Numbered from the stretch's first letter, positions 49,921-58,416 are shown. The stretch: 64,000 nt of DNA from Candidatus Metalachnospira gallinarum (GCA_904378045.1 CAJFHC010000008.1:1-64000), one strand, 5' to 3'. Notes: generated by a model not told the origin, from the sequence alone. Numbers and translations are program-made.

Positions 49921-50044
49921 ATAGTAAAAGTATTCTATTATATCAAAATTTTTGAAATAAAATATCGTTATTGTTACCCTGAATCCGAAGATCTGCGGTT
50001 CGCTGTGTATAACAGTATGCAGCTATTAAGGAGGAGTGCGATGT

Positions 50045-50908
50045 ATGAAAAAAATTCTATTTCTTCTTATACTACTGACAGCGGTAAATTTATCATCCTG
50101 TTCAGGCAAACCGAACAGTAATAGCGACCTTGTCCCGAATGTTGAAGACGTTGAGATTGGTTCATTCACCGAATATGATCTGATAAAAGAGCTTCAGACG
50201 ATGGATAACGATAGGCTTTCGGAACTTGGCTATACGGATAATGAAATCAGCGAAATATACTCCATTGATTTTAAAAAAATCGTTGAGGCTGCAAAAGAAA
50301 AACGATATGAAACCTTAAAAAACAGCGGATATACGGATGAGGACATTAAAGTCATTTACGGTGATGACATTGACGCGGCAGCCAGGATCTTATCGGCAGA
50401 GTTGATTTGTCGTTGTGAAATAACCGGCCTCAGCTACAGTCCCCTGATGGACAGGACATACGCTGACGTTGAATTTGCGTGGAAATGGAACAAGTGCCCT
50501 ATGATCACATTTACCGACATTATAGGCGTCTATGTTTCAAACCGGATGTATATAGATAAATCAAAAGTTTTTGTAAGATATTATGAGGATGGCGACTGGG
50601 ACTCATACTCTCAGACCAAAACATATTGTTTTGAGCCTGCCGGCGTTACAAGCCTTGCGGAATGCTCATTTGATATTAATCTATTCAAGTTCCCAAGCGT
50701 TCAAAAATCGGAGGTCGCTCTGGAAGGCAAGGCGTTATGCCGCTGGAAACTTGATGAAAAATTACAGGACATTTATGTCGTAGCCAAATACGGTCACTCC
50801 GTAATTCCATGTTCCCCGGATTTGGCGGTGTCTGACGGTAATTTAGTATTTGCTCCATATATCGGTGTGTCGGAGGCAGGAATGGATTTAGATTACATAA
50901 AAAAATAA
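50045..50908 (+). CDS. Uncharacterised lipoprotein with a duplicated GYTD motif
   Basis: The 287-residue protein has a lipoprotein signal (MKKILFLLILLTAVNLSSCS, Cys at 19). Residues ~54-107 hold a 33-residue tandem repeat: DNDRLSELGYTDNEISEIYS and RYETLKNSGYTDEDIKVIYG, each a helix-turn-helix-like L..GYTD..I..IY unit. The rest (about 115-285) is beta-rich with many Tyr/Trp. No known domain is recognised. AAGGAGGA lies 9 bases before the ATG at 50045. It has its own promoter and terminator and borders the stalk-protein/protease region, to which it may belong by function. Confidence 0.75.
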   Translation: MKKILFLLILLTAVNLSSCSGKPNSNSDLVPNVEDVEIGSFTEYDLIKELQTMDNDRLSELGYTDNEISEIYSIDFKKIVEAAKEKRYETLKNSGYTDEDIKVIYGDDIDAAARILSAELICRCEITGLSYSPLMDRTYADVEFAWKWNKCPMITFTDIIGVYVSNRMYIDKSKVFVRYYEDGDWDSYSQTKTYCFEPAGVTSLAECSFDINLFKFPSVQKSEVALEGKALCRWKLDEKLQDIYVVAKYGHSVIPCSPDLAVSDGNLVFAPYIGVSEAGMDLDYIKK

Positions 50909-50936
50909 ATTCTATTTTCACATTTTAAATTAGCAA

Positions 50937-50979
50937 AACCGAGGTCAAGCATCCACAGCGGATTCCGGCCTCGGTTATT
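50937..50979 (+). terminator. Terminator of the lipoprotein gene
   Basis: AACCGAGG...CCTCGGTT forms a stem with a long loop, followed by ATTTTTTAATTTTT. Confidence 0.75.
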
Positions 50980-51055
50980 TTTTAATTTTTATATGAAATT
51001 CACTTTATTTTGTACGCAGATTTTTTCATACAGTTTATTAACTTTTCAGTCTATA

Positions 51056-52015
51056 TCATTTTATAATGTATCGGTTCAGCGTCTCATAAACGATATCTCC
51101 GTTTGCGTATACGGTCGTTACGTCAAACATTTCCCTGCCGACAACCGGAACAAAATGCCGGTCAACTCTCTGGCTTATGACCTCACGGCTTGAGCCGTCA
51201 GCCTCGAGCGCCATTTTCTTGAGTTCATCCTCGGTAATGTTTCCATCGACTACAGCTTCACCGGCGGTATTGTAAATTTCTCCGCCGATGGCCGTTATTT
51301 CCACCCGATCATTGTATACGGCCGCGAAATATCCCAAATTCGTCTCTATTTCGTCCACCGTATATTTATAAATAACAAACCGTTCAGCATCGGAGTTATC
51401 ATCCGTCTCCACTATCTTTTTAGTAAAATTATCCGCCGAAAACTCCGCGTCCATCGTTTTTATGCAGTTTTCCACATATTTATCGTCAGCGCATCCTTCC
51501 GTTTGGAAAACATCCGATTTTTCCTTTGAAATGTTCAAAATCACGTTTCCCTCGGCAAATGATACACCGATATTTTCAACGCCGTAATATTTCAGCGCTG
51601 TCTCAACGGGGATATAAAGCCTGTCGCCGATTATTACATTTCTTGCTTCCTGCGCTTCTCTTTTGCCGTTTACGTCGGAGAAGCTCTCGCCGGCGGCCGA
51701 CGATATGGTAAATGCTTTGCCGTCCTCGTTTCGCGCGGCGGTAAACAGCTTTCTTTCGCCATCCCAGGAAATATCGGATTCGTCATAGTTTCCGCCGGCA
51801 TACAAGTCTATATATCTGGCCGGTATAAGGACATTTCCGTTTTCATCGGTCACAGCTCCTTCTCCATCGTGACCCATATATATCCCGTCAACATATATGC
51901 CCGCCATACCGGGAACTATGGTCGTTCCACGCTCGGCGATATATGCCGCGTAGGCGCTGAACGGCGTAAGCGAAGCCAAAGTTAAGGCGATGGCTATAAC
52001 TTTTAACCGTCTCAT
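51056..52015 (-). CDS. Secreted stalk-domain protein with PepSY-like C-terminal region
   Basis: The 319-residue protein has a signal peptide (cleavage near AYA, ~23), then a stalk domain similar to the N-terminal domain of copper amine oxidases: IYVDGIYMGHDGEGAVTDEN, LIPARYIDLYAGG and the second lobe RNVIIGDRLYIPVETALKYYG. The C-terminal half (about 190-319) has FVIYKYTVDEIETNLGYFAAVYNDRVEITA (in parts) and DGNITEDELKKMALEADG, a PepSY-like pattern that recalls the C terminus of the protease at 54 kb. It follows the lipoprotein gene at 52 kb by 12 bp. Confidence 0.78.
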   Translation of the reverse strand: MRRLKVIAIALTLASLTPFSAYAAYIAERGTTIVPGMAGIYVDGIYMGHDGEGAVTDENGNVLIPARYIDLYAGGNYDESDISWDGERKLFTAARNEDGKAFTISSAAGESFSDVNGKREAQEARNVIIGDRLYIPVETALKYYGVENIGVSFAEGNVILNISKEKSDVFQTEGCADDKYVENCIKTMDAEFSADNFTKKIVETDDNSDAERFVIYKYTVDEIETNLGYFAAVYNDRVEITAIGGEIYNTAGEAVVDGNITEDELKKMALEADGSSREVISQRVDRHFVPVVGREMFDVTTVYANGDIVYETLNRYIIK

Positions 52016-52027
52016 ATCCGTCCTCCT

Positions 52028-52804
52028 TTACAGAGCAAAGGTCTGTCCCATTATCTCTACGCTGTCAATATTGTTTATATCGACCATATCGTCGAAATTG
52101 ATTATCGTAACAGCTGATCCGTCGCTTTCAGCTGAAGTTGACTTGTCCGTTGTCTGCGAAACCTCGTCTCTGCCGCCGTCCTTATAGTTAAGGGCTACGC
52201 TTCCGAGATCAGCGCCATTCTCGCGGTTATATTTTAAAACTATGGAAGTCTGGCCTACAACGCACTCCGTAAGCTCTATACCGTCTATCTTCGTGCCGTC
52301 AACATTTACCGCTGCCGCCGTCTTATCGCTTCCGACAACGCAGTTGAGCATCCAGCTTCCCTCGGCGCAGCTTACAAATTCTTCGCCCTCAAAATATCCG
52401 TAGTTCTCAAGCTCAAGCCAGTAATTGCCCGCCGGAACACCTCCGTCAAAGCTGTACTCCAGCTTCCAAACATCGTCCTGGCCGTTGGACGAATAAAGCT
52501 CGGAACCGATAAATTCGCATCCGGCGTCCCCTCCGTCGGCGCTCAGAAGAGATACTTTCTCAAACTCCATATCCGACGCCGGTCTTTCGGGCTCGGGAAG
52601 GCTGACCTGATACATGATCACCATTTCATCATCTTCTATGCCCGCGCCGGTTACTTTAACATTGAAATTTATCGGCACGTTTGAAACAGCCTCCTGCGTC
52701 TCCAAGTCTGTTTTTTCGGTGTCTCCGTTAGTCCCGGAGCATCCTGAAAGGCATAACGCCGCGGAAAATCCGATTATCGCCGCTGTGTTTAAAAATTTCT
52801 TCAT
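52028..52804 (-). CDS. Uncharacterised lipoprotein
   Basis: The 258-residue protein has a lipoprotein signal (KKFLNTAAIIGFSAALCLSG then C, near residue 21). The mature part is acidic, beta-rich and Ig-like, with NFNVKVTGAGIEDDEMVIMY and YSFDGGVPAGNYWLELENYG. No catalytic motif or known family is recognised. The ATG at 52804 follows AAGGAG. It heads a two-gene unit with the stalk-domain protein, driven by the matched promoter(s) at 52875-52903 and 53037-53065. Confidence 0.72.
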   Translation of the reverse strand: MKKFLNTAAIIGFSAALCLSGCSGTNGDTEKTDLETQEAVSNVPINFNVKVTGAGIEDDEMVIMYQVSLPEPERPASDMEFEKVSLLSADGGDAGCEFIGSELYSSNGQDDVWKLEYSFDGGVPAGNYWLELENYGYFEGEEFVSCAEGSWMLNCVVGSDKTAAAVNVDGTKIDGIELTECVVGQTSIVLKYNRENGADLGSVALNYKDGGRDEVSQTTDKSTSAESDGSAVTIINFDDMVDINNIDSVEIMGQTFAL

Positions 52805-52874
52805 AGCTAACACTCCTTGATCTGAAATATTATATGATTTTCACGTTAAAAGTTCAGTAATATTACTTGATTTA

Positions 52875-52934
52875 ATTATCTCACAACAATATTTTGATTT
52901 CAATATTTTCCAGATAATCTTAATAATTATTTAA
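52875..52934 (-). promoter_or_regulatory. Matched promoter, copy 1 (52-kb lipoprotein unit)
   Basis: On the minus strand TTGAAA (52898-52903) and GATAAT (52875-52880) are exactly 17 bp apart. The block directly upstream (52904-52934, plus strand TATTTTCCAGATAATCTTAA then TAATTATTTAAA) is conserved with copies at 53037 and 56133. The 52805-53151 gap holds this promoter, copy 2, a small hairpin with T8 (about 52981-53010) and a terminator at its right end. Confidence 0.7.
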
Positions 52935-52975
52935 AATATTTGTCAGAATTTTAAATAATTTACACAATAATCAGC

Positions 52976-53012
52976 CAAAAAAAACAGCTTTCCAAAGCGG
53001 CTCCGCCGACAT
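52976..53012 (-). terminator. Small hairpin plus T8 between two matched promoters
   Basis: On the minus strand GCCGCTTT-GG-AAAGCTG is followed by eight T. With copy 2 of the matched promoter starting near 53030, it would give a ~50-base RNA that also contains a 13-codon frame (M-S-A-E-P-L-W). It may be a small RNA, an attenuator or a leftover of a deleted gene. Confidence 0.4.
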
Positions 53013-53036
53013 TCTTATACTATTTCCTTTGCCGAG

Positions 53037-53096
53037 ATTATCGCATGGAAAGACAGGAGTTTCAATATTTTTCGGATGATTTTAATAAATATTTAA
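53037..53096 (-). promoter_or_regulatory. Matched promoter, copy 2
   Basis: On the minus strand TTGAAA (53060-53065) and GATAAT (53037-53042) are 17 bp apart. The spacer (CTCCTGTCTTTCCATGC) resembles that of copy 3 (TTCCTGCTTTTTCGTGC), and the upstream block TATTTTTCGGATGATTTTAA then TAAATATTTAAA matches copies 1 and 3 with a few changes. Confidence 0.65.
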
Positions 53097-53106
53097 AAAG
53101 CTGCTT

Positions 53107-53142
53107 ATAAAAATACAGCGCCCTGTTATTAAGCAGGACGCC
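53107..53142 (-). terminator. Terminator of the protease/stalk-domain operon
   Basis: On the minus strand GGCGtCCTG-cttaataa-CAGGgCGCT is followed by GTATTTTTAT, 10 bp after the stop codon of the stalk-domain gene at 53152. Confidence 0.7.
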
Positions 53143-53151
53143 TTATTACTG

Positions 53152-54018
53152 TTATTTACTTTGGATTTCTTCCTCCGGAAGCACTTCAAAAATTATTGCT
53201 TTGCCAAATGATATATCAAGTTGGTCCATACCTACTGTTACATCAATGTAATCCTTTCCTTTGTATGAAAAAGTCGAAGAGCTTGTATCATCGTAATGAT
53301 GCGGCTGGGAATAATAGTTCCACGCCCGCCGTTCCGCCTCAGTCATAAGCTCCCTGCTGAATATTGGCCTGTGAATATTGAGTTCTACCGATTCTTCGTA
53401 CGGCAGGTTTCCTTTATACTCCATATATTCTTCATACACTTCTGTTCCTTCTTTAATGGGCAGCATTTTGAGCCTTTCGCTTACGTCCGAGATATGAAGC
53501 TGCATATTTTCATCGTAATAGCTGTAATATCCGATGGCATCGGTCAAATCTTTCAGTCTTATATACAGCGTCCCTTCACAGTTAAAACCGCTTTCAAAAT
53601 ATTCGCTGTTTTTAAGCGCCGTAATCTCCTTATCGCCAAGATAGACCGGCGTTTTATTTTGGTTTACCGTAACGTCTCTCGCGCCGAATCTTATTACATC
53701 GGCTTTATTTTCCGTCTCCGTTCCGATTATGGAAATAACGTTTTTCCCGCCGTCATAGATCACCGTTCTGCCAAGCATTTCCGCCACATTCCTCAGGGGA
53801 ACATATATCTTTTCTTTGCTGTAGAACACATCGCAGTTTATTCTGTCCTCGCCGTACCATATAGTCAGAGGGATCATATTTACGACTGAACTCCTCTGCA
53901 CTGAATACTTTTCATATTGCTCCATGGAAAGGCCATAGGTCTGTTCCTCGGCCTGCGCCGTATAGGCTGAGCCAATGAGCATAATTGATATTAACAGGGC
54001 GCATTTTAATGCCTTCAT
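53152..54018 (-). CDS. Secreted stalk-domain protein (copper amine oxidase N-like)
   Basis: The 288-residue protein has a signal peptide (KALKCALLISIMLIGSAYTA, cleavage near AQA). A stalk domain follows: WYGEDRINCDVFYSKEKIYV then PLRNVAEMLGRTVIYDGG and ISIIGTE; a second set has VYLGDKEITALKNSEYFESG, GTLYIRLKDLTDAIGYYSYY. The C-terminal ~90 residues are hydrophilic and include NIHRPIFSRELMTEAERRAW. Such domains usually anchor or present other modules on the cell surface. AGAAGGT lies 6 bases before the ATG at 54018. It is 8-14 bp after the clan CD protease gene and co-transcribed. Confidence 0.8.
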   Translation of the reverse strand: MKALKCALLISIMLIGSAYTAQAEEQTYGLSMEQYEKYSVQRSSVVNMIPLTIWYGEDRINCDVFYSKEKIYVPLRNVAEMLGRTVIYDGGKNVISIIGTETENKADVIRFGARDVTVNQNKTPVYLGDKEITALKNSEYFESGFNCEGTLYIRLKDLTDAIGYYSYYDENMQLHISDVSERLKMLPIKEGTEVYEEYMEYKGNLPYEESVELNIHRPIFSRELMTEAERRAWNYYSQPHHYDDTSSSTFSYKGKDYIDVTVGMDQLDISFGKAIIFEVLPEEEIQSK

Positions 54019-54031
54019 TCTCATACCTTCT

Positions 54032-56077
54032 TTATGATTTTAATATAAGGCGGTCTATCCGATAAACGTATTCTTTGCATCCGTAAACCTCGTTATCAGT
54101 GCCCGGGTCTATGGTATAATCAGTTTTGACAACAAGGCTGTATCTTCCGTTGACTACTTCCTTCGAGATCTCCTGTTCCGTTATCTCATAACCGGCAAGG
54201 ATTTCATCCGCAGCCTCTTCCTTAGCCTTTTCAATATCCTCATCCGAAACGGGTACTGTATATTTTTCTAAATAGCTGAAATCATTGTCGATATTTTCAT
54301 TTTCGTTGAAATAAATAACTTCTCCGTCTCTTACTATCGCGTAAAATCCTTCTCTCGCGTCAAATCCGTTTACATATCTTTCATAGTAAACCTGAAGTAC
54401 ATTATTGTCTCTTTCTTTAGTGATTATTTCATAATCATTCAAATCAACGGCGTAGTTATCAACTATATACTTGTTTATCTGTGATAAATCATTCTTCGAC
54501 GCCTTGATACCTGTATAGTTTTTGCTCACTGCTTCCGCATCTATATTAATGGGCATTGCCGCGCTCCTTGATATGGGAGTTCCGTTTCCCGGCCATATAA
54601 CGCAATCCTCATTACCGTAAATTTCCCAGCTTGTAACCTCATCACCCGGATATTTTTTATCGGCATAAAGAGCTGACTCATATACGGTATATCCGTCTAA
54701 TAAACGCTCAAAAAAATCCTCATTCCACCCTGTAAGAGCTCCTGTTTCCACGTTTTCAACCCAGCCTATCGCGCACTCAGCTCCATTGTCCGTTGCGTAT
54801 TCAGGAAGGTTTTTGTTAGATAAACTCTTTGGTTCGTCCGCAGTACGGCAAGCCGCAAAAACCATCAGTCTGCTTTCAACTTCTTTTCCGCTAAGTTTGA
54901 CAAAATTAAATTCTTCCGAATCATGTTCTACATTCCTTACATTAGTGCTCACGCCGCATACTATCGGTTCGTCATCGTTATTATTAAAGTAAAATTTTAT
55001 GTGAGTTGGCGCTCCGTGTCCGTCCAAAAAAACTACTGAGCTTCCAAGCCTGTCCGTGCCGTCATCATTGGTGTCATCCAACTCATCATAAGTAGGCTCA
55101 TCAATATATGTGGCATTATAATAATCCGTATTCTTAAGCAAATTCCTGATATATTTTGCCACTCCGGTTGTATCAATGTCGTTAATGTCCAGATATTTAT
55201 TCGAATTTCCGGGATCATAACTTATAAAATCGGCTCCGACCGAAAGAGCGTATTCTTCCTCATTATAAAATCTTACTTTGATTTTATATTCTTCCGTATC
55301 GTCATAGTCGGAACTTCCCGCGCCTTCAACTCTGATATAATAATACTCATCCGGATTTACAAAAGCGTATATTCTTTCAGTTTCGCCATCTGAGCCGTCT
55401 GTACTTTCGTCTATCACAGTTTTTGACGGGCTGATCAAATAAAAATCATAGTCTTCGGTATCGGGAACTGACAATCTAAAATATGCCTGTCCCATCTCGG
55501 AAAACTTGATTTTATAGTAATCCACATCGTCTCTGTCTTCTATGGTTCCATACACATATTCGTCTAAATAGAGTTTGTCCGCGTTTTTTATTGTATCGTT
55601 CGGTTCATACTCATCATAAATAACCTGAGTTTCTATTTCATTTTCCTCATCCTCAAGCACCGACTTGGGCACGCTAAGTTTGGGCTTTACATATCCGGCT
55701 TCTTTATTTTTCTTCGACTCCTTGATATACTCGTCGATTTTTGCTTCCAGCTCATAAAGTTCCTCATCTGTAAGTCCGCTGTCATCAATTTTTTCAACCT
55801 CAGCTGTCCCGGATATATCGTTTTTACTGCCTGCCGCATTATTAGAACGCATTGCCGACCATTTCTTTGAAAAGTCTTCTGATATCGCTATTTTTTCTTC
55901 TCTGGTATATGAATCTCCATTTCCGATAGTCCAGACTCTCATACCATTATTTATTGTTTCCTCAACCTCGTATTTAGGTAATTCAGGTAAACTATAAGCG
56001 AAAGCGGTCAAGTTCATAGAATTTAAACATAAGCACGCTAACGCTGCCGCAGCAAAAAATTTTTTATTAACCCGCAT
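54032..56077 (-). CDS. Secreted pre-peptidase-domain protein with clan CD (caspase/gingipain-like) His-Cys pair
   Basis: The 681-residue protein has a signal peptide (to ~27), an acidic helical linker (85-150), and a bacterial pre-peptidase C-terminal (PPC) domain at ~155-270 (YEPNDTIKNADKLYL, DVDYYKIKF, YYYIRVEGAGSSDYDD). A following domain (~275-500) has the clan CD pattern: a hydrophobic strand ending in His354-Gly (SSVVFLDGHGAPTHI) and a second ending in Ala-Cys410 (SRLMVFAACRTADE), with DGYTVYESAL after it. The last ~155 residues are PepSY-like. I infer a secreted cysteine protease. A PPC domain on the N-terminal side is unusual. Confidence 0.72.
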   Translation of the reverse strand: MRVNKKFFAAAALACLCLNSMNLTAFAYSLPELPKYEVEETINNGMRVWTIGNGDSYTREEKIAISEDFSKKWSAMRSNNAAGSKNDISGTAEVEKIDDSGLTDEELYELEAKIDEYIKESKKNKEAGYVKPKLSVPKSVLEDEENEIETQVIYDEYEPNDTIKNADKLYLDEYVYGTIEDRDDVDYYKIKFSEMGQAYFRLSVPDTEDYDFYLISPSKTVIDESTDGSDGETERIYAFVNPDEYYYIRVEGAGSSDYDDTEEYKIKVRFYNEEEYALSVGADFISYDPGNSNKYLDINDIDTTGVAKYIRNLLKNTDYYNATYIDEPTYDELDDTNDDGTDRLGSSVVFLDGHGAPTHIKFYFNNNDDEPIVCGVSTNVRNVEHDSEEFNFVKLSGKEVESRLMVFAACRTADEPKSLSNKNLPEYATDNGAECAIGWVENVETGALTGWNEDFFERLLDGYTVYESALYADKKYPGDEVTSWEIYGNEDCVIWPGNGTPISRSAAMPINIDAEAVSKNYTGIKASKNDLSQINKYIVDNYAVDLNDYEIITKERDNNVLQVYYERYVNGFDAREGFYAIVRDGEVIYFNENENIDNDFSYLEKYTVPVSDEDIEKAKEEAADEILAGYEITEQEISKEVVNGRYSLVVKTDYTIDPGTDNEVYGCKEYVYRIDRLILKS

Positions 56078-56132
56078 ATTTATTCCCTACCTTAATTTAA
56101 TGTATAGTCCTATAGCTGCTTTCTATATCCAG

Positions 56133-56196
56133 ATTATTGCACGAAAAAGCAGGAATTTCAATATTTTCCATATAATCTTAACGATTATTTAAAATA
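56133..56196 (-). promoter_or_regulatory. Matched promoter, copy 3 (protease operon)
   Basis: On the minus strand TTGAAA (56156-56161) and AATAAT (56133-56138) are 17 bp apart, ~55 bases before the protease ATG. The block upstream reads TATTTTCCATATAATCTTAA then CGATTATTTAAA on the plus strand, nearly the same as copies 1 and 2. No BlaI-type site is visible here. Confidence 0.7.
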
Positions 56197-56240
56197 TTTA
56201 AAAAAAATATATCCTGATTATATTCTATATGCGATCTATC

Positions 56241-56654
56241 CTATTTCTTTGAATATTTTGACATCAAAACAAGATTTCTTATGCCGTTAAAAGCATTCAC
56301 TCCGATATAAACCGTTCCAAAATTCAGCATATATTCAATATAAGTAAACTGCAAAGCCGTTGGCTTTTCCATAAAAAATGCTGATAAGATATATATAGCT
56401 GAGAGCACGGCGATTATAAGATTTACTATGCAAATTATCACACAGCTCTTTTTTGTGTCTCCTTTATTAAGGATCACCGCTCCTATGGCCGCTCCGAAAA
56501 ATATGGCGCTTACATGCTGGAGCACGAGCATTTTAATGTCATATCCCATAAAGTTTTCCATCTCGAGTTCAAATCTTTTAGCGAAATATGCAGACAACAT
56601 AATAAAGATAAATGGCAAAATTTCAGATATGATAAGCAAGATTATTTTTTTCAT
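56241..56654 (-). CDS. Small four-helix membrane protein
   Basis: The 137-residue protein has four hydrophobic segments (IILLIISEILPFIFIMLSAY, then AIFFGAAIGAVILN, VIICIVNLIIAVLSAIYILS and a last near GTVYIGVNAFNGIRN). No family is recognised. The ATG at 56654 overlaps the BlaR1-like stop codon as ATGA and has AAGGAGG upstream, so it is translated with BlaR1. By position it may be a partner or immunity/inhibitor subunit of the sensor, but this is only context. Confidence 0.75.
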   Translation of the reverse strand: MKKIILLIISEILPFIFIMLSAYFAKRFELEMENFMGYDIKMLVLQHVSAIFFGAAIGAVILNKGDTKKSCVIICIVNLIIAVLSAIYILSAFFMEKPTALQFTYIEYMLNFGTVYIGVNAFNGIRNLVLMSKYSKK

Positions 56655-57940
56655 ATTATAGCCTCCTTGTGAGGGCATACGCTAAAAGTTTCTACATCGA
56701 AAATATCTTTTGTCTGTGTCTTTCCACAGTCTTCACAAACTTTTGAATTGTAATATATCATAATACATCCGCCATTATCGAGTTTTTCATGCTCTGTTAT
56801 AATTACGTCTATCCATGTATGGATATGTTTTGGTTCCGTCTCACTATAGCCGCTGTTATTATCAATATTTCTCGTTTCCATCAGTTCTTCAGCTTCATCA
56901 ACTGTAAGAACATCAAATTCTCCTTCTCTTACAATATTCTTATCACTCCCAAACACCCCATAAACGGCATAATCAGCCTCTTTAGCCGCGTACCCTGCTC
57001 CGCAGAATACGCAAAGCGCCATAAAAGACATTGCCACCGTCGCCATCTTTGTTCCTTTTTTCTTGTTTTTCATAATCAATTCCTCCCTTCTTGTCATACT
57101 GTTCTTTCGCTTTAAAGCCAAAAAGGACGCCAAAACATTCTTGTATTTGATATTTATTTCGGCCACCTTTATAAGCAGGTTCGCGTAGAGCCTTCTTGTT
57201 TCCTCGTCAAAGTCCTGGTTGAGCGTTTCGTCGCAGTCGGCCTCCGTCCAGAAACAATAGCCCTTTTTGATTTTATAAAAAAATGGATTGAACCAGTTTA
57301 TACCGTTCAATATTTCAATGAAGATTTTTAAAAAAGCGTCGTTTTTTTCTATATGCGTCAGCTCGTGCATCAGGATAAGCCTTATCTCTTTATCGCTTAG
57401 AATATTCTCGAGTATAACCGGAAATACTATGTATTTTCTTCTTACCCCTATGGTATATGGCTGTGCAGTGCTCTTGCTCATCAAAAGTATGACTCTTTCG
57501 CTCTTTTCAATGAACTTAAATATTTCCGCCGTTTTTCCCACAGCAGGCGTGGAATATTTTTTTATAGCTCGTATAGTTTTTATATAGTTGATAATTAAAC
57601 ATACAATATATATAACTATACCTGTCGCCCATACTGCCGTAAGTATTCTGCCTATGTTTATCCTGTCCAAAAAATTATAAATATCTTCCGTCAAATTGCT
57701 GTTTACTACTATCAAAGGAACTCCATCGCCTATTATAAAGCTGGTTTCCGCTTCTTCCATCAAAAAATATATCATATATGAAGGAAGAACGAATGAAATG
57801 AGTCCAAATCCCATAAGATATTTCATAAAAGCCGCCGACGTGCGATTATATACTATTTTTTTGATCAACAATATGATCGCGCAGGTAATGCTTCCGGTAA
57901 TGACCGAATATGCCGCGAAGATGAAAATATTTTCCGTCAT
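56651..57940 (-). CDS. BlaR1-like M56 membrane metalloprotease with Cys/His-rich outer domain
   Basis: The 429-residue protein has three to four N-terminal membrane helices, the M56 zinc site HELTH (192-196) with Glu233 in WTEADCDETL, and a last membrane helix near 298-318. In BlaR1/MecR1 the C-terminal outer part is a ~250-residue penicillin-binding sensor; here only ~110 residues follow, with no S-x-x-K, and with His372, His374, His384, Cys392, Cys402, Cys405, Cys422 and His424. This suggests a metal- or redox-sensing ectodomain. It overlaps blaI by 4 bp (ATGA). Confidence 0.87.
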   Translation of the reverse strand: MTENIFIFAAYSVITGSITCAIILLIKKIVYNRTSAAFMKYLMGFGLISFVLPSYMIYFLMEEAETSFIIGDGVPLIVVNSNLTEDIYNFLDRINIGRILTAVWATGIVIYIVCLIINYIKTIRAIKKYSTPAVGKTAEIFKFIEKSERVILLMSKSTAQPYTIGVRRKYIVFPVILENILSDKEIRLILMHELTHIEKNDAFLKIFIEILNGINWFNPFFYKIKKGYCFWTEADCDETLNQDFDEETRRLYANLLIKVAEINIKYKNVLASFLALKRKNSMTRREELIMKNKKKGTKMATVAMSFMALCVFCGAGYAAKEADYAVYGVFGSDKNIVREGEFDVLTVDEAEELMETRNIDNNSGYSETEPKHIHTWIDVIITEHEKLDNGGCIMIYYNSKVCEDCGKTQTKDIFDVETFSVCPHKEAII

Positions 57941-58326
57941 TTGTTTTTATTCACCCATTCTTTTAATTCATCAAGGTCTTTTTCGCTTAATTCATCATCC
58001 TTGGCAAAGGCGGAAACAAAGTCTTTGATGGAACTGCCAAAGAATGTTTCAAGAAATCTTTTTCCCTCCTCTACTCCGTATTTTTCCCTGTCAACGGTAG
58101 GGTAATAGTAATTTGTTATCCCCTTTTTCTCGTGGGTCGCAAAGCCCTTTTCCTCAAGTCTGTCCAAAAATGTGGAAACTGTCCTTGTCGCCCACTTGGT
58201 TCCCTTCGCCTCAAGGATGGAACAGGCTTCTCTGACGGTAAGGCCTTCGTCGCCCTTATCAAGTAAGATGCCTAATACTTTCTCCTCTGATTTTGACGCT
58301 GTTTTAACTTCGCTTTTTTTTCTCAT
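57937..58326 (-). CDS. BlaI/MecI/CopY-family repressor
   Basis: The 129-residue winged-helix repressor has GLTVREACSILEAKGTKWATRTVSTFLDRLEEKGFATHEKKG (in parts: KWATRTVSTFLDRLEEKG is the recognition helix and family mark), and a C-terminal dimer/cleavage region. In this family the partner BlaR1 protease triggers repressor cleavage. It is first in a three-gene operon with the BlaR1-like and membrane protein genes, and two TGTACCGA boxes lie in its promoter. Confidence 0.93.
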   Translation of the reverse strand: MRKKSEVKTASKSEEKVLGILLDKGDEGLTVREACSILEAKGTKWATRTVSTFLDRLEEKGFATHEKKGITNYYYPTVDREKYGVEEGKRFLETFFGSSIKDFVSAFAKDDELSEKDLDELKEWVNKNK

Positions 58327-58368
58327 AATTCATTCTCCATTCTTTTATAATTTATTTTTTAGTCATTT

Positions 58369-58416
58369 TTGTACTCGGTACAATTATAGTTTATATCTTT
58401 TCGGTACATTTGTCAA
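58369..58416 (-). promoter_or_regulatory. Promoter and operators of the blaI-blaR1-like operon
   Basis: On the minus strand TTGACA (58411-58416) is followed after 15 bp by TATAAA (58390-58395). TCGGTACATT (58401-58410) and TCGGTACAAT (58375-58384), plus-strand sense, are direct repeats 26 bp apart; the second is part of the palindrome TTGTAC-tcg-GTACAA (58369-58383). One box lies in the spacer and one just after the start point, a layout suited to autorepression by BlaI, whose family sites have TACA/TGTA cores. Confidence 0.6.

Follow-up and report, generated by a model that had tools for sequence, protein, structure and literature searches.

The window analysed here, a 64-kb stretch of the Candidatus Metalachnospira gallinarum genome (GCA_904378045.1 CAJFHC010000008.1), contains a locus that encodes a BlaI repressor, a BlaR1-like M56 protease, a small membrane protein, a secreted protein of 681 residues, two stalk-domain proteins, and lipoproteins. 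The genome has a size of 2.05 Mb and comes from a gut-type member of the Clostridia. The locus is a new form of BlaI/M56 signalling. The original prediction, made from the sequence of the window, named eight genes, and every one of them is present on the strand assigned to it. It named conservation of the gene neighbourhood as a check; the neighbourhood is real and recurs in other genera.

Gene content and the exported CHAT protein

The central features of the locus, which is read from the minus strand, are the following:

57937..58326, minus strand: blaI, a BlaI/MecI-type winged-helix repressor of 129 residues (Penicillinase_R PF03965, E 9.7e-26, over the cut-off)
56651..57940, minus strand: M56 (BlaR1-like) membrane metalloprotease of 429 residues (PF05569, E 1.2e-31)
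57353..57367, minus strand: HExxH zinc-protease motif HELTH, residues 192-196 of the M56 protein, invariant in 21 tailed M56 proteins
56669..56821, minus strand: extracytoplasmic tail of the M56 protein, residues 374-424, with H374, H384, C392, C402, C405, C422, and H424, invariant in 21 proteins
54032..56077, minus strand: secreted PPC, CHAT (caspase-like), and C-terminal domain protein of 681 residues, with a signal peptide and with profile and fold matches to CHAT
55262..55606, minus strand: pre-peptidase C-terminal (PPC) domain, approximately residues 158-272, with Foldseek matches to the PPC/collagenase domains 5SV5, 1NQJ, and 3AFG
54563..55252, minus strand: CHAT domain, approximately residues 276-505, with His354 (55016-55018) and Cys410 (54848-54850)
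54053..54520, minus strand: C-terminal domain (CTD), approximately residues 520-675, which is also present on stalk-domain proteins

The 681-residue protein has no match of its own in Pfam or NCBIfam, and neither database contains a significant family for the lipoproteins or the four-helix membrane protein of the locus. A family profile was therefore built from relatives of the 681-residue protein. As a lone query, the protein gave nothing in a profile scan of the genome contigs; the full family alignment was too divergent for scanning, and a close subset identified four loci. One relative passes the Pfam CHAT cut-off (28.4 versus 24), and the family profile matches the SAVED-CHAT protease 8TL0 with an E-value of 0.0025, in an alignment that pairs the Gly-His-Gly and Cys positions. 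The predicted structure has a mean predicted local distance difference test (pLDDT) score of 74, which reaches 84-94 in most of the CHAT region. The top PDB match of the predicted structure in Foldseek is 8TL0 (E 1.5e-6), followed by PPC domains. The Gly-His and Cys residues are invariant in 11 relatives that share only about 20-30% identity. Because of the profile and fold matches to 8TL0 and the invariant Gly-His and Cys, the 681-residue protein is very probably a secreted CHAT protease with a predicted catalytic dyad of His354 and Cys410. The original description of a PPC domain joined to a His/Cys protease-like region with a caspase-like fold thus agrees with the CHAT matches of the relatives and with the model, in which the fold is caspase-like, the dyad is aligned, and both SAVED-CHAT and PPC domains are matched. 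Two further exported proteins with CHAT-like regions, of 662 and 2140 residues, differ widely in architecture (L111 5961-7949 of genome G153 and L021 2212-8634 of genome G096, respectively).

The predicted caspase-like fold with its His/Cys dyad is common to the window protein, SAVED-CHAT 8TL0 of a type III CRISPR system, and TPR-CHAT/Craspase, and these CRISPR-linked proteases are related to the window protein (PMC9729208 for TPR-CHAT/Craspase; PMC11417357). SAVED-CHAT and TPR-CHAT/Craspase belong to intracellular CRISPR systems, whereas the window protein has a signal peptide, a PPC domain, and a CTD, and lacks SAVED, TPR, or a CRISPR partner. In its PPC fold and secretion, the protein resembles clostridial collagenases and the Tk-SP subtilisin, the catalytic domains of which are a metalloprotease or a subtilisin instead of CHAT. 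To our knowledge, CHAT proteases have so far been known from inside cells. An exported caspase-like protease would, if the assignment is true, give CHAT enzymes a place outside the cell as well. Membership of the locus in anti-phage defence was considered and rejected, as the PADLOC matches were marginal (E 0.0003 or weaker) and none involved the CHAT or stalk-domain proteins of the window.

The CTD connects the CHAT protein to its neighbours in the locus:

53152..54024, minus strand: stalk-domain exported protein 1 of 290 residues, starting 7 bp after the CHAT gene (Cu_amine_oxidN1, 26.2 bits, cut-off 24.2)
51056..52015, minus strand: stalk-domain exported protein 2 of 319 residues, with a CTD (Cu_amine_oxidN1, 27.3 bits; CTD, E 2.8e-7)
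52028..52804, minus strand: lipoprotein with the lipobox LSGC, read from the sequence

Both stalk-domain proteins exceed the Cu_amine_oxidN1 cut-off, in agreement with the original prediction, and the signal peptides and lipoboxes that it listed can be read in the translations by a heuristic check. The CTD comprises about 160 residues and matches no Pfam family. It occurs on stalk-domain protein 2 and on three more proteins of the Ca. Metalachnospira gallinarum genome, and across the family it is mostly found without CHAT, on exported stalk-domain proteins of many genomes. The three further exported CTD proteins of the genome (G000:C58, C66, and C3; L068, L069, and L070) are scattered, with no CHAT gene nearby. 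The most likely role of the CTD would be the retention of the CHAT protease at the cell surface or control over it. The prevalence of the CTD on stalk-domain proteins without any protease domain and the weak sequence similarity to known CHAT proteases (E 0.0025) would also suit a surface-binding or adhesive protein built on a caspase-like scaffold, which would not work as a protease and would have been retained for the sake of its PPC domain and CTD. The invariance of Gly-His and Cys among the 11 divergent relatives argues against this, and we consider an adhesive role unlikely.

The M56 protein and its His/Cys tail

The identities of BlaI and the M56 protein, which had been proposed from the sequence, are those given by the Pfam profiles. 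Both active-site motifs of the M56 protein, HELTH and EADCD, are intact, and the closest PDB folds to its model are the Staphylococcus aureus BlaR1 structures 8EXQ, 8EXS, 8EXT, and 8EXP. According to the Pfam and NCBIfam profiles, the M56 protein contains no penicillin-binding (transpeptidase-like) domain, as the original prediction had claimed. A tail of about 50 residues stands in the place of this domain, and its three histidines and four cysteines are invariant in the 21 proteins. The tail can be placed outside the cell because of the topology of BlaR1. The model of the tail contains a three-stranded sheet, with a pLDDT of 67-77 for the block. The tail matches no Pfam family, and a sequence search against the PDB gave marginal zinc-finger matches only. 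The tail probably binds zinc; alternatively, the cysteines and histidines may act as a redox switch. The M56 protein fits a membrane receptor-type protease, the conserved outer domain of which senses a signal from outside the cell.

The locus shares with the BlaI/BlaR1 and MecI/MecR1 systems of Staphylococcus and Bacillus licheniformis the BlaI-type repressor, the M56 protease with HExxH and ExxCD motifs, the overlapping genes, and the palindrome at the promoter, and the fold match to 8EXQ extends the likeness to the M56 model. The sensor of BlaR1 and MecR1 is a beta-lactamase-like domain (PMC7593790, PMC9834060), which is replaced here by the 50-residue His/Cys tail. The cargo differs as well, since BlaI/BlaR1 and MecI/MecR1 control a beta-lactamase or PBP2a, whereas the cargo here consists of exported proteins. 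The parts in common with BlaR1, and the use of BlaI-type regulators mostly in beta-lactam resistance (PMC7593790), would be compatible with an ordinary BlaR1-like response to beta-lactams or cell-wall damage, with the exported set serving in envelope stress. Nevertheless, the locus is no beta-lactam sensor by sequence, because the defining outer domain is missing. Neither a beta-lactamase nor a PBP gene is present in the locus, and a canonical BlaI/BlaR1 pair, complete with transpeptidase domain, is encoded elsewhere in the genome (G000:C4:57130-57942; L031). A beta-lactam or cell-wall-damage response is thus very improbable.

Work on BlaR1 has so far dealt almost exclusively with antibiotic sensing. 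We found about 45 M56 proteins with the His/Cys tail, in at least three families of the order. The tail is present on about 30 M56 copies in 58 genomes of the family and was detected in 25 of 392 genomes of the order, whereas 391 genomes drawn from the class gave no tail match outside the order. When a tree is built from the M56 core alone, with the tail region excluded, 19 of the 22 tailed proteins, including that of the window, form a set with one truncated protein at a support of 100/100, and the remaining three group beside it. The window protein has a long branch, and its exact place inside the tailed set is unsure. These results point to the tail as the mark of one branch among the BlaR1-like receptors, distinguished by its new outer domain; this feature is wider than the original prediction saw. 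Beside the tailed set branch M56 proteins of 604-640 residues without the tail (L134, L126).

Conservation of the neighbourhood and its cargo

Three species, two of them from one genus, have CHAT genes next to tailed M56 genes. The order BlaI, tailed M56, CHAT, and stalk-domain protein is found in Ca. Coprocola pullicola (L022), and the order BlaI, tailed M56, C39-like protein, stalk-domain protein, and CHAT occurs twice in Clostridium sp. MD294, also known as ASF356 (L064, L071). A CHAT gene lies downstream of a tailed M56 gene on the same strand in four cases, against 0.018 expected, and the probability of the adjacency is approximately 2e-4 when only two independent lineages are counted. 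The C39-like, stalk-domain, and CHAT parts of L064 and L071, which lie on one chromosome (NZ_CP097810), are near-identical, and each stands behind a BlaI-M56 pair; the CHAT gene of L071 is broken, with a recombinase fragment after it. In a further genome (L027), CHAT and stalk-domain genes adjoin a BlaI-M56 pair without the tail. About eight other CHAT-CTD loci of the family have no M56 neighbour or lie at contig ends.

The nearest downstream gene is on the same strand and encodes an exported product, as called by a simple hydrophobicity rule and not a trained predictor, for 19 of 23 tailed and 9 of 25 untailed M56 genes (Fisher p 0.0014); the two sets lack phylogenetic independence, and canonical BlaR1s located before PBP-like genes are among the untailed proteins. 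Secreted proteases recur among the cargo after tailed M56 genes, which includes CHAT proteins, cysteine proteases of the papain type, one trypsin-like protein, and a subtilisin from another family. Stalk-domain proteins and small secreted proteins without an assigned kind make up other cargo. The lipoprotein at 52028..52804 has a short local match to a protein adjoining another tailed M56 gene (L195).

Several tailed M56 loci have genes for a relaxase, an integrase, or a serine recombinase close by (L064 794-2167, L189 946-2328, L186 1710-2792, L195 937-2007, and L190 2847-4400), and the M56 genes of L189 and L191, from two different genomes, are almost identical. Together, these observations suggest mobility. 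The position of the modules near mobilisation genes, their varied exported cargo, and the CTD common to CHAT and the adjacent stalk-domain proteins could indicate an antagonism module, in which the CHAT protease would attack nearby bacteria or the proteins that they secrete, with the CTD stalk-domain proteins as its inhibitors in trans. We regard antagonism as improbable, as neither a delivery system nor a toxin-immunity pairing was seen, and CTD stalk-domain proteins are also present without a CHAT gene nearby.

Control of the locus and the proposed mechanism

The elements relevant to the expression of the locus, and the small membrane protein gene between the M56 and CHAT genes, are listed below:

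58388..58416, minus strand: predicted sigma-A-type promoter of the blaI operon, TTGACA-N17-TAAACT, a consensus match only
58369..58383, no strand assigned: perfect palindrome TTGTACCGAGTACAA at the blaI promoter, predicted BlaI operator
56241..56654, minus strand: small multi-helix membrane protein (TM4) of 137 residues, ATGA-coupled to the M56 gene, read from the sequence
56120..56194, minus strand: 75-nt promoter element, copy 1, upstream of the CHAT gene, with TTAA repeats followed by TTGAAA-N17-AATAAT
53117..53142, minus strand: intrinsic-terminator-like hairpin after stalk-domain protein 1, with 9 pairs, of which 6 are G-C, followed by a T-rich stretch
53024..53098, minus strand: 75-nt promoter element, copy 2, with no gene directly behind it
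52862..52936, minus strand: 75-nt promoter element, copy 3, upstream of the lipoprotein gene (52028..52804)

The predicted ATGA couplings are present, with overlaps of blaI and the M56 gene at 57937-57940 and of the M56 and four-helix protein genes at 56651-56654. The four-helix membrane protein exists and is coupled to the M56 gene as proposed, with the correction that its start is more likely at 56654, which gives the 137 residues listed. The palindrome TTGTACCGAGTACAA lies directly downstream of the TTGACA-N17-TAAACT promoter and has one perfect copy across the genome. The 75-nt elements consist of TTAA repeats ahead of a TTGAAA-N17-(A/G)ATAAT promoter with an extended -10, and, with up to three mismatches allowed, the core of the element matches nowhere in the genome outside its three copies here. 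The claim that BlaI represses the exported set directly is unsupported, because the sole perfect palindrome is at blaI and the exported genes have a different promoter element. There is no convincing terminator-like site from the M56 and TM4 genes to the CHAT gene, and the first candidate is the hairpin after stalk-domain protein 1, which is the best of 8 found versus 6.9 expected and is weak by itself. Transcripts that start at the blaI promoter may therefore read through into the CHAT gene, and this would be the route by which BlaI controls it.

The best explanation of the locus, to which we give an even chance, is a BlaI/M56 membrane signalling unit with the short outer tail as its receptor, controlling an exported CHAT protease. 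The tail, in place of the beta-lactam-binding domain of BlaR1, would be the receptor and would probably bind zinc. By analogy with BlaR1, a signal would switch on the M56 protease at the inner face of the membrane, which would lead to the destruction of BlaI. BlaI would then be lost from its single predicted operator at the blaI promoter. Because the intervening DNA shows no terminator-like site, transcription through blaI, M56, and TM4 would continue into the CHAT gene and that of stalk-domain protein 1. The simplest addition is a second regulator, which is expected to act on the promoter element common to the CHAT unit and the unit of the lipoprotein and stalk-domain protein 2. The product would be an exported caspase-like protease, which the CTD most likely holds at the surface or controls in its activity. 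Tentatively, and with somewhat less than even confidence, we extend the explanation to an undescribed branch of BlaR1-type receptors that senses an extracellular cue (a metal, redox state, or peptide) through the His/Cys tail and controls the surface and secreted proteins of gut Clostridia, chiefly proteases, with the exported CHAT protease as the case at hand.

Several observations weigh against the best explanation. The exported genes of the locus have no TTGTACCGAGTACAA-type match at up to two mismatches. About 20 related loci have no BlaI operator at the cargo genes, except for weak A+T-rich matches; palindromes were found there before blaI and not convincingly before the cargo. About 8 of the 13 CHAT-CTD genes in the family do not adjoin a tailed M56 gene. 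The CHAT gene of Ca. Coprocola seems to carry a frameshift close to its start, and one of the ASF356 copies is broken, although intact copies exist. With the sole perfect palindrome at blaI, the 75-nt element before the CHAT and lipoprotein genes and nowhere else in the genome, and the relaxase, integrase, and recombinase genes near several tailed loci, BlaI could regulate its own operon only, and the exported genes could form a separate regulon under the 75-nt element, in modules that travel and reshuffle together. However, exported genes are far commoner after tailed than after untailed M56 genes, CHAT genes accompany tailed M56 genes in separate lineages, and the stretch from the M56/TM4 genes to the CHAT gene has no terminator-like site. 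We consider a separate regulon doubtful, though to be taken seriously.

If the proposed control of exported proteases by the tailed receptors is true, a BlaR1 branch that has another outer domain, numbers several copies in each genome, and lies ahead of secreted proteases would show this signalling design at work as an outside-in switch of general use in gut bacteria. One of the carriers of tailed M56 proteins, Clostridium sp. MD294 (ASF356), is in culture as part of a defined mouse flora, which makes the idea testable. No published description of the tail or of the secreted CHAT module was found in the literature covered, which included few subscription journals.

The 64-kb sequence contains no Rfam element and no tRNA. 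One further gene had been included in the exported set:

50036/50045-50908, plus strand: lipoprotein, which need not belong to the locus

Its membership is unsupported, as no counterpart was detected in related loci; single-sequence profiles of this lipoprotein and of the four-helix protein found no relatives when the neighbouring loci were scanned. The middle copy of the 75-nt element, at 53024-53098, has no gene directly behind it and may be the remnant of a lost gene.

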